64,000 bases of DNA from Methanoplanus endosymbiosus (GTDB taxonomy: Archaea > Halobacteriota > Methanomicrobia > Methanomicrobiales > Methanomicrobiaceae), in contig NZ_CP096115.1 in the NCBI RefSeq assembly GCF_024662215.1, positions 2,294,001 through 2,358,000 of the forward strand. The letters run 5' to 3'. This document shows, in pieces, positions 51,471-56,188 of this stretch. Position 1 is the first letter of the stretch. Every line of letters starts with the position of its first letter. Under the pieces are notes generated by a model. That model was given only the letters and a program-made list of their open reading frames with translations, did no database searches and had not been told where the DNA came from. The position numbers were made by a program, and so were the translations under genes.

Positions 51471-52952
51471 ATGAAACAGTCCGATTTAACTCTTGAGATC
51501 GCTACCGGTGAGGACAGCACTCACCAGTTCAAGGTAAATATCAATAATGGTGAGTCTATAGCGGCAGAAATGGCGGCTTTTGCTAATTCAAAGGGTGGCA
51601 CAATATATATTGGGGTTGCTGATGACGGGACTGCTCCGGGCCTTACAAAGAAGGATGTTTCCCGGATTAATCAGCTTATCAGCAATGCTGCCAGCCAGCA
51701 GGTAAAAAGTCCTCTTGCCGTACATACGGAAAATGTTGCCCTTGATAATGGCAGGATTGTAATAGTTCTGAATGTTCCTAAAGGTATAGACAAACCATAT
51801 TTTGATAAAAATGGTGTGATCTGGCTGAAAACCGGTTCAGACAAACGAAGGATCAATTCTAAGGAGGAATTGCGGCGGCTTTTTCAGGTGACTGATCAGT
51901 TCCATGCAGATGAAGTTCCAACTAAAGCGGGTATCAATAAACTTGATAACATTCGCTTTCGTGATTTTTTAAAGAGTGCATATAAGCAGGATGTGCCATC
52001 GTCTTCTGAAGAACTTATCAGACTTTTGCAGAACATGAATCTTGCAGCAGACAATGGGATGCTGAATCTTGCAGGTGTGCTGATGTTTGCCGAAAGGCCT
52101 GAATGGATAAAACCACAGTTTATTGTTAAGGCAATCTGCTATCCGGGAAATGATATTCACATCAGTGAATATCTGGATACGGAAATTTATGAAGGTCCTT
52201 TTCAGAAGGTTTTTGAGAGTTCTCTTGCATTTATTATGCGTAATCTGCATAAGATTCAGGCCGGACGTGGTATTAATTCGCCGGGACTCCCTGAGGTTCC
52301 GGAAAGTGTCTTTGAGGAACTTCTTGTAAATGCACTTGTTCATCGTGATTATTTTGTAAGTGCTCCGATCCGTATTTTTGTTTTTGATAACCGGATAGAG
52401 ATTGTAAGTCCGGGACATCTTCCAAATAATCTGACAGTGGAGAAGATCAGGACTGGTAATTCAAATATAAGAAACCCGATTCTTGTCTCCTATGTTGCAA
52501 AGGGTCTGTTGCCATATCATGGGCTTGGTTCGGGAATAAAACGTGCACTGGAGCAGTGGCCGGATATTGACTTTGAGGACGATCGTGAAGGGTGTAAGTT
52601 CACCGTTACGGTTCACCGGAAGGTTGCCGGTGGGGCTGATGAACTGAAAAGTTCACCAAAAAGTTCACCAAAAAGTTCACCAAAAAGTTCACCAAAAAGT
52701 TCACCAAAAAGTTCACCAAAAAGTTCACCAAAAAGTTCACCAAAAAGTTCACCAAAAACAGAAGATCAGATTATTGAACTAATACTGAATAACTCCTTTA
52801 TCACTTCGGCCCAGTTGGGTGAAGTTCTTGGAATATCCAAACGTGCAGTGCTGAAACAGATTGAAAAGCTTAAAAAACAGGGTCGTCTGAAACGCATTGG
52901 TTCGACAAGAAGCGGTCAATGGGAATTAATCTCAGATAATAGTGATCGGTGA
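51471..52952 (+). CDS. AlbA_2/RecG-like protein with tetrapeptide repeats
   Basis: A 493-residue protein. The N-terminal AlbA_2 (divergent AAA-4) domain includes AAFANSKGGTIYIGVADDG (about residues 32-50), a middle ATPase/helicase-like domain has FEELLVNALVHRDYF and PYHGLGSGIKRALEQWPDI, and a C-terminal winged helix (about 432-480) contains FITSAQLGEVLGISKRAVL. Between them are nine perfect KSSP units. Likely a DNA-binding regulator; substrates unknown. Confidence 0.85.
   Translation: MKQSDLTLEIATGEDSTHQFKVNINNGESIAAEMAAFANSKGGTIYIGVADDGTAPGLTKKDVSRINQLISNAASQQVKSPLAVHTENVALDNGRIVIVLNVPKGIDKPYFDKNGVIWLKTGSDKRRINSKEELRRLFQVTDQFHADEVPTKAGINKLDNIRFRDFLKSAYKQDVPSSSEELIRLLQNMNLAADNGMLNLAGVLMFAERPEWIKPQFIVKAICYPGNDIHISEYLDTEIYEGPFQKVFESSLAFIMRNLHKIQAGRGINSPGLPEVPESVFEELLVNALVHRDYFVSAPIRIFVFDNRIEIVSPGHLPNNLTVEKIRTGNSNIRNPILVSYVAKGLLPYHGLGSGIKRALEQWPDIDFEDDREGCKFTVTVHRKVAGGADELKSSPKSSPKSSPKSSPKSSPKSSPKSSPKSSPKSSPKTEDQIIELILNNSFITSAQLGEVLGISKRAVLKQIEKLKKQGRLKRIGSTRSGQWELISDNSDR
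52647..52757 (+). repeat. 12-bp minisatellite inside the AlbA_2 gene
   Basis: Nine copies of AAAAGTTCACCA in perfect tandem (52647-52754) plus one extra AAA codon, each encoding Lys-Ser-Ser-Pro. No copy carries a substitution, which points to recent expansion or ongoing homogenisation. Unit length keeps the frame, so copy-number change would alter linker length without frameshift. Confidence 0.95.
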
Positions 52953-55237: not shown

Positions 55238-55729
55238 TTTTTTAAAATTTCCGGAAATTATGGATTATATTATCTTCAATAACCTTCTGATCAATTGACT
55301 CATAACGGATATAGGTTTTATTGTATTGACTCACCCTTTTCTCCTCCTCTCAGATCCTGACACAGCCGGGAGACAGTACACAGATGTTACCTCCGGTTGT
55401 CATGGTGCAATTAATTCCTGCGATATTATTAATATCTCATCCATCCTAGTTTTATGAAGCACTTATCTTTGATAGTGCTGGCTTTTGTAAGTCCGACGTG
55501 TTCTGTAATAACAGGCACTGCCGTAAGGCTAGGGATTACAAAAAGGTCAGTATATGGCTCTTTTTGTGGACTTACAGTTGTATCCGGATAATATTTGATA
55601 CTTCAAAACCGGAAAAGCGGGATATTAGTCAATAATATTCCCTGAGTAACTCTGTTAAATGCGTAATTAATCATGCGTAACAGATGCAGATGCTCGTTAA
55701 AGTATCTTTTAAAATAAAGGTGGTGAAAA
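55238..55729. other. 492-bp gene-free region with structured segments upstream of rpsO
   Basis: No convincing gene. On the left are the minus-strand promoter sequences of the ACT gene (A/T-rich near 55262-55272). The middle (55358-55577) holds several stems, listed separately. The right end has CTTTTAAAATAAA (about 55708-55720) as a TATA-like stretch and GGTGGTGA before the S15 ATG. Confidence 0.6.
55358..55577 (+). ncRNA. Candidate structured RNA or leader upstream of rpsO
   Basis: Stems visible: TGAC...GTCA plus CCGG/CCGG and AG/CT (55358-55372 with 55391-55402); AGCAC-T-TATC / GATA-GTGCT with TTT loop (55458-55479); an outer stem TTGTAAGTCC (55485-55494) pairing GGACTTACAG (55568-55577). 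Within that outer stem are CTGT-AATA-ACAG (55503-55514), a GTAA-tetraloop hairpin GCC-GTAA-GGC (55520-55529) and ACAAAAAG (55538-55545) / CTTTTTGT (55560-55567). Together these form a multi-branch junction. No known RNA family is recognised; strand is undetermined because stems are symmetric. Confidence 0.5.
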
Positions 55730-56188
55730 ATGGCACGAATGCACGCCCGCAGGCGCGGTAAATCCGGCTCAGTCCGTCCACTCCGCACAGAAGCACCGGA
55801 ATGGTCCAACAAGGACGCAGCAGAGATCATAAAGACAGTAGTAGAACTAAGAAAGGATGGACTTTCAAGTGCCGCAATCGGACTTGTCCTGAGAGACAAG
55901 CACGGTGTTCCGAGTGTTAAGCTCGCAACCGGCAGGAGAGTTGACCAGATTCTCGCAGACAACGGTCTTGAATCTGATATCCCTGAAGATCTCAGAAACC
56001 TCATTGTAAAGGCACTTGGTATGAGAAAACACCTTTCTGAGAATAAGAAGGATGTACACAACAAGCGCCAGCTCCAGCTCACCGAAGCAAAGGTGCGCAG
56101 GCTTGGGAAGTACTACGTAAGAACAGGCAAAATGCCAAAGGGATGGGCATACAAACCTGATACTGCGGAATTCCTGCTATCAAGATAA
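55730..56188 (+). CDS. rpsO: 30S ribosomal protein S15
   Basis: A 152-residue archaeal S15/S13e. It begins ARMHARRRGKSGSVRPLR, then VVELRKDGLSSAAIGLVLRD and the S15 helical core with RKHLSENKKDVHNKRQLQLT and GKYYVRTGKMPKGWAY. GGTGGTGA precedes the ATG. It leads an operon with the GAN nuclease, Pcc1 and S3Ae, as in many euryarchaea. Confidence 0.97.
   Translation: MARMHARRRGKSGSVRPLRTEAPEWSNKDAAEIIKTVVELRKDGLSSAAIGLVLRDKHGVPSVKLATGRRVDQILADNGLESDIPEDLRNLIVKALGMRKHLSENKKDVHNKRQLQLTEAKVRRLGKYYVRTGKMPKGWAYKPDTAEFLLSR

Follow-up and report, generated by a model that had tools for sequence, protein, structure and literature searches.

A conserved 3' extension of the S15-Methanomicrobia leader upstream of rpsO in Methanoplanus endosymbiosus appears to form the mobile part of a two-state RNA switch

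RESULTS

The element upstream of rpsO is a known S15 leader

The element upstream of rpsO in M. endosymbiosus is the S15-Methanomicrobia leader (RF03137, clan CL00121), and the conserved 3' half of this leader seems to provide the mobile part of a two-state RNA switch. Sequence comparison indicates that conservation on the 3' side of the element reaches beyond the end of the RF03137 model. We give about even chances to the reading that this is an autoregulatory leader of the rpsO-recJ-rps3ae operon, with its conserved 3' platform acting as a two-state switch and termination as the likeliest output.

The window analyzed here, a stretch of 64,000 nucleotides, contains a single cis-regulatory Rfam match as judged by cmscan (Rfam 15). 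This match, to RF03137, lies on the + strand at positions 55458-55539, spans model positions 1-74 of 74, and scores 60.4 bits against a gathering cut-off of 42.2 bits. Open reading frames and Pfam matches place rpsO, a recJ-like DHH gene (PF01368/PF02272) and then rps3ae (PF01015) downstream on the same strand, which is the operon given for RF03137 leaders by Eckert and Weinberg 2020 (PMC7247131). The match and the matching operon together identify the core of the finding as the known leader. A preliminary description, made from the DNA sequence alone, had taken the element for a possible new structured RNA or a regulatory leader for the S15 operon. The latter suggestion was right, but the core is not new, having been published as RF03137 in 2020 (PMC7247131). 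The 492-bp gap that it had described as free of genes is indeed so (55238-55729), and it had correctly seen the 3' part that the Rfam model leaves out.

RF03137 was found in 209 of the 232 genomes of the order Methanomicrobiales, with one match in each. Among the most complete genomes of the order the figure was 132 of 135, and 37 of the 40 genera carried the leader. A class-level search gave the same genomes as the order search. In a sample of the phylum, 104 of 391 genomes had the leader, all within the order, and it was found in none of the 285 sampled genomes outside it. The element is therefore conserved across the order, in keeping with the lineage (Methanomicrobia) given for RF03137.

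Twenty rpsO loci of other lineages were scanned for Rfam S15 leaders. Four carry the S15-Halobacteria leader (RF03143), are haloarchaeal by that leader, and were the only ones in which an Rfam S15 leader was detected. Three loci of this type (L144, L148, and L150) have a common TTCCAATC word just before the rpsO start. In these three, CAAUC might base-pair with the GAUUG in the GGGAUUGCGG strand of the leader, which makes a switch possible in this family too. In family f8 (L121, L123, and L124) there is an inverted repeat, TCAAGTTA..TAACTTGA, upstream of rpsO, and a TTCGCC word occurs upstream of rpsO in f8 and f14 (L131, L133, L135, and L138). No Rfam leader match was found upstream of rpsO in the f8 and f14 loci scanned; their upstream words are possible candidates for undescribed rpsO leaders. 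Elsewhere in the window, an open reading frame at 51471-52952 encodes about ten tandem SSPK repeats (SSPKSSPKSSPK...), which from the sequence seem to lie between an AlbA_2-like/ATP-binding-like front and a C-terminal helix-turn-helix-like end.

Limits of the element and its promoter

The features of the promoter and leader are listed in Table 1. In a sister species of the same genus, near-identity starts abruptly at ~55417 and continues to 55577; nearly all of the differences fall in the P3 and P4 loops. These limits define a conserved unit of promoter plus leader at ~55417-55577 rather than the originally proposed extent of 55358-55577. The 3' end of that extent stands, but its 5' limit does not, the element beginning with the first hairpin at 55458.

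Table 1. Features of the rpsO promoter and leader (window positions)
Feature	Position	Strand	Basis or remark
TATA-like box TTAATATC	55429-55436	+	Order-wide signal; identical in sister species
P1, 5' hairpin AGCACU..AGUGCU	55458-55479	+	Part of RF03137 match
D5, CUGGC, 5' strand of helix D (state 1)	55478-55482	+	Pairing counts; unpaired in Rfam model
Shared strand GUAAGUCC, pairs with A3 (state 1) or B3 (state 2)	55487-55494	+	Alignment, pairing counts
P3, hairpin mimicking 16S helix 20, holds CTGT-AATA-ACAG	55498-55518	+	RF03137 model, 16S comparison
P4, GCC-GTAA-GGC hairpin, helix 21 position	55520-55529	+	RF03137 model; loop letters vary among genomes
A3, GGGAUUAC, state 1 partner of shared strand (helix 22 mimic)	55532-55539	+	Rfam model ends here
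D3, GUCAG, pairs with D5 (state 1) or within hairpin C (state 2)	55546-55550	+	
Hairpin C, ACAAAAAGGUCA/UGGCUCUUUUUGU (state 2)	55538-55567	+	Outside Rfam model
Conserved U-tract UUUUU	55561-55565	+	Run of at least 4 U in most leaders
B3, GGACUUAC, competitor strand for GUAAGUCC in state 2 (outer stem of the preliminary description)	55568-55575	+	
Structured spacer, B3 to ribosome site	55578-55716	+	-35.8 versus -23.8 kcal/mol (shuffles)
Shine-Dalgarno (SD) region AAGGUGGUGA of rpsO	55717-55726	+	Sequence; conserved in family
rpsO, S15, 152 aa, first gene of rpsO - recJ-like DHH - rps3ae	55730-56188	+	PF08069, PF00312

The stems reported earlier are present in the sequence, namely TTGTAAGTCC (55485-55494) with GGACTTACAG (55568-55577), in which one pair is U-G, together with CTGT-AATA-ACAG, GCC-GTAA-GGC, and ACAAAAAG/CTTTTTGT. 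Folding of the region 55340-55600 exceeds chance as had been supposed, at -76.9 kcal/mol versus -62.3 +/- 4.7 kcal/mol for dinucleotide shuffles (z = -3.1). The outer stem and the ACAAAAAG/CTTTTTGT hairpin fall outside the Rfam model but are maintained across the order. However, the stems do not all belong to one fold with the rRNA-like core, as they had been drawn, because formation of the outer stem is incompatible with the conserved GUAA/UUAC stem in the Rfam model. The GNRA loop noted in the small hairpin is present here (GTAA) but is not conserved, being TTAT in the sister species. Overall, the earlier observations were partly confirmed and their interpretation partly supported.

A further stem at 55358-55402 exists in the window as described but was rejected as part of the element, being destroyed in the sister species and located 5' of the promoter. 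This stem is rich in GC (GCCGG..CCGGTTGTC, -14.7 kcal/mol) and lies where rpsO and the DUF5612/ACT gene diverge.

When 108 distinct upstream sequences were aligned on the GCAC of P1, a promoter signal was evident as T in 97% at -29, A in 78% at -27, and A in 86% at -11. The signal is sharp only in alignments on the 5' arm of P1 and blurs when the sequences are aligned on GUAAG; the spacing of the P1 arms ranges from 8 to 27 nt across genomes. A signal that is sharp on the 5' side of so variable a hairpin suggests that the transcript should begin at P1, and from the promoter position a start at ~55458 is expected. In some genomes TTTATATA adjoins P1, which had prompted the idea that P1 is a DNA operator between the TATA box and the start. 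This was rejected, as the order-wide TATA box keeps a fixed distance to the P1 5' arm while P1 varies in length. Scans for sigma-70 promoters and bacterial-type terminators gave chance-level matches only.

The leader has two mutually exclusive conserved folds

We read 124 leaders, comprising 113 and a further 11 that are more divergent. After GGGAUUAC, nearly all have a purine run, GUCAG, a loop, CUCUUUU, and then GGACUUAC or a variant of it. Two folds can be drawn. State 1 consists of the Rfam GUAA..CC/GG..UUAC stem (helix A, GUAAGUCC/GGGAUUAC) and of helix D (CUGRC/GUCAG), which is unannotated in Rfam, the model leaving the CUGRC linker unpaired. In state 2 the same GUAAGUCC pairs with the downstream GGACUUAC (helix B) and GUCAG enters a hairpin with the conserved U-tract (hairpin C). 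Since A and D share GUAAGUCC and GUCAG with B and C, the two folds cannot coexist.

Pairing was counted in an alignment of 70 sequences (A1), made with MAFFT by sequence alone with the 3' ends of the rows set by the B3 consensus motif. Helix A was paired in 100% of cells, helix D in 98.5-99.6%, and helix B in 96%, as compared with 20-50% when helix B was slid by 1-3 columns; for all three helices the counts were well above slid controls. Helix D occurs as CUGAC/GUCAG, CUGGC/GUCAG, CUGGC/GCCAG, CAGGC/GCCGG, and other combinations and, read by eye, is rebuilt with other letters in genera g35 and g38. The covariation score of helix B exceeded those of all 500 shuffles. One of its positions is G-C in 50 sequences, G-U in 12, and A-U in 6, and another is U-A or U-G, with a C-G pair, accompanied by a bulge, in genus g36. 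Compensatory changes, a check proposed in the preliminary description, thus exist. The changes on both sides of helix B all fall within one family of the order and could trace to a small number of events. Of 119 distinct leaders, 100 have a helix B that is better (p<=0.05) than those from dinucleotide shuffles of the sequence downstream; the helix is missing or weak in genera g26 and g38.

Substitutions in the shared strand bear on both states. In g36 the shared strand has become GCAA, A3 UUGC, and B3 UUUUGC, so that both partners followed the change. A G-to-A change within GUAAGUCC is matched by C-to-U in B3 only, and is therefore specific to state 2. GGGAUU is invariant although it is unpaired in state 2, as would be expected if S15 binds state 1. 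The leader therefore has two mutually exclusive pairings, each conserved or covarying, which is the mark of a switching leader.

Hairpin C differs in sequence from lineage to lineage yet keeps folding strongly (mean z -2.5), and it is better than chance at p<=0.05 in 57 of 79 distinct sequences. In genus g17 (L060-L064) the loop of hairpin C contains an insertion of ~45 nt; B3 is retained there, as for the most part is the U run. Of 119 distinct leaders, 112 have four or more consecutive U, and in the other 7 the run is interrupted or absent. Even opposite AGGGA, where C would pair better, the run stays U, an indication that it matters in its own right.

Helix D, hairpin C, the context of the U-tract, and B3 are absent from the RF03137 model and from the main text of PMC7247131. 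The 3' extension may have been seen earlier, for example in the supplementary alignments of that paper.

State 1 preserves a junction resembling 16S rRNA

The genome's own 16S rRNA was located by a search with an SSU rRNA model, and the leader was set against it at what we take to be the position of the S15 site. The 16S sequences of helices 20-22 are GGCUUCGACAGUGAGG and UUCUAGGAACCGG, and their counterparts in the leader are AGUCCGACGUG and GGCUAGGGAUUAC. By eye, the likeness to the h20-h21-h22 junction of the genome's own 16S rRNA is seen in UCCGACGUG / UUCGACAGUG and CUAGGGAUUAC / CUAGGAACCGG. State 1 keeps the helix-22-like stem beside the junction, and state 2 removes it. The match agrees with the rRNA mimicry claimed for the leader in PMC7247131.

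Predicted energies of the two states

In folding calculations made without protein and with the pairs of each state forced, 96 of 104 genomes had state 2 within 1 kcal/mol of the minimum free energy, and no genome had state 1 so close to it. The gap between the states averages 10.7 kcal/mol; for the window genome the energies are -83.5 kcal/mol (state 2) and -75.1 kcal/mol (state 1). State 2 is thus the predicted ground state. The predicted unpaired fraction of the U-tract is 0.54 in state 1 versus 0.32 in state 2.

DISCUSSION

S15 probably controls its own gene through this leader. S15 binding and repression of the operon by RF03137 are predictions of PMC7247131, and a literature search for an experiment on either found none. 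In the mechanism that we propose, the transcript would begin at the P1 hairpin and, since A3 (GGGAUUAC) is synthesized ahead of B3, folding would start with the core. When free S15 is lacking, GGACUUAC further downstream would displace A3 from the shared GUAAGUCC and GUCAG would join hairpin C. The resulting state 2 would destroy the S15 site, hide the U-tract, and leave the rpsO ribosome site relatively open. Excess S15 would instead hold the 16S-like three-way junction closed by helices A and D. State 1 would thereby free the U-tract and B3, and the operon would be turned down.

The likeliest output would be premature transcription termination at the U-tract, assisted by aCPSF1/FttA. The U-tract is already behind the RNA polymerase when B3 is synthesized, so termination of the classical intrinsic type would have to act slowly or after synthesis. 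From the sequence, we would rank transcription attenuation first and translational repression second. The fuller form of the proposal, in which RF03137 is the sensor half only and an S15-driven exchange of A and D for B and C exposes a tract of four or more U for aCPSF1/FttA-dependent attenuation in the 5' UTR, we put forward tentatively, at a little below even chances. We know of no experimental demonstration of such attenuation in archaea. Archaeal terminators do not require a hairpin (PMC8716108), and the leader has a U5 run, exceeding the four U of the minimal tract. Two U4 tracts, however, are the minimum for efficient aCPSF1 binding in vitro in Methanococcus maripaludis (PMC8716108), and the leader has a single uninterrupted U run near its 3' end, at 55561-55565; we therefore do not class it as a canonical terminator. 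Poly-U stretches are mentioned in the main text of PMC7247131.

The same S15-driven switch could act on translation, with state 1 lowering ribosome access to the rpsO start, which we regard as rather unlikely. Predicted exposure of the SD bases is indeed 0.25 in state 1 versus 0.53 in state 2 and is lower in state 1 in 84 of 104 genomes. Selected sequestration of the SD by the freed strand was nevertheless not supported: shuffling that strand left state 1 exposure alike (0.27 versus 0.25, p = 0.20), and no selected anti-SD pairing is visible. Position likewise points both ways. In most genomes that do not belong to the window's own family, just ~20-30 nt separate the end of B3 from the ATG, and most genomes with long spacers have them folded well beyond shuffles, which would keep the leader near the SD and speaks for a translational output; against it, the spacer between B3 and the ribosome site varies from ~20 to >180 nt. 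Long folded spacers also occur in L006, L010, L019, L021, L022, and others, and in the window's family an AGTATCT-like word often closes the spacer a short way ahead of the SD. A translational output has an archaeal precedent in L7Ae, which induces a fold in its own leader (PMC6298567), but it leaves the conserved U run unexplained.

Neither output would apply if the leader were static, with RF03137 as an S15 site acting by simple blockage and helices B and C merely stabilizing or spacing it in the absence of any ligand-driven exchange. Genera g26 and g38 do manage without a strong helix B. Such a leader seems improbable from the sequence comparisons, given that A and B share one strand and C and D share GUCAG, so that both conserved sets cannot coexist, and given that in g36 A3 and B3 each changed along with the shared strand. 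Finally, the preliminary description had also entertained a small RNA or a MITE. The long inverted repeat at the outer ends invites this idea, and an end of transcription at the U-tract could let a short leader RNA build up. An independent element of either kind is nonetheless very improbable, and the MITE reading is refuted by the copy number. A whole-genome search gave one full-length copy and two short matches; the longer of these two (L002; 33 bp, 86%) is a chance match inside an unrelated open reading frame and not a second copy. The element also has a fixed position just upstream of rpsO in the relatives examined, and its promoter, which starts transcription at the first hairpin, forms one unit with the leader.

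Among known systems, the closest is RF03137 itself, with a full-length match of the core from P1 to GGGAUUAC, the same operon, and the same 16S-like junction. The difference is that the model ends at GGGAUUAC with the linker unpaired and lacks helix D, hairpin C, and B3. The S15-Halobacteria leader (RF03143) belongs to the same clan and has a core of the CCGCAAGUCYGAC / GGCUUGGGAUUGCGG type upstream of rpsO, but its stems are arranged otherwise and no B3 equivalent was evident in four loci viewed by eye. In the archaeal L7Ae leader a regulator of a ribosomal protein family likewise switches the fold of its own mRNA leader (PMC6298567). That leader, however, uses a K-turn rather than an rRNA junction, is unstructured without protein, and has occlusion of the ribosome site as its demonstrated output (PMC6298567). 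In the bacterial rpsO leaders, S15 recognizes an rRNA-like mRNA element and represses its own gene (reviewed in PMC7247131); their structures appear to differ from that of RF03137.

RF03137 was published as a predicted S15-binding structure, with the regulatory mechanism left open. The sequences indicate a platform around it, made up of a strand that competes for pairing, another closing helix, a hairpin with the U-tract, and a promoter at a fixed distance. This platform gives exact mutations with which to test RNA-level gene control in archaea, and it bears on whether a ribosomal protein can steer the general archaeal termination factor.
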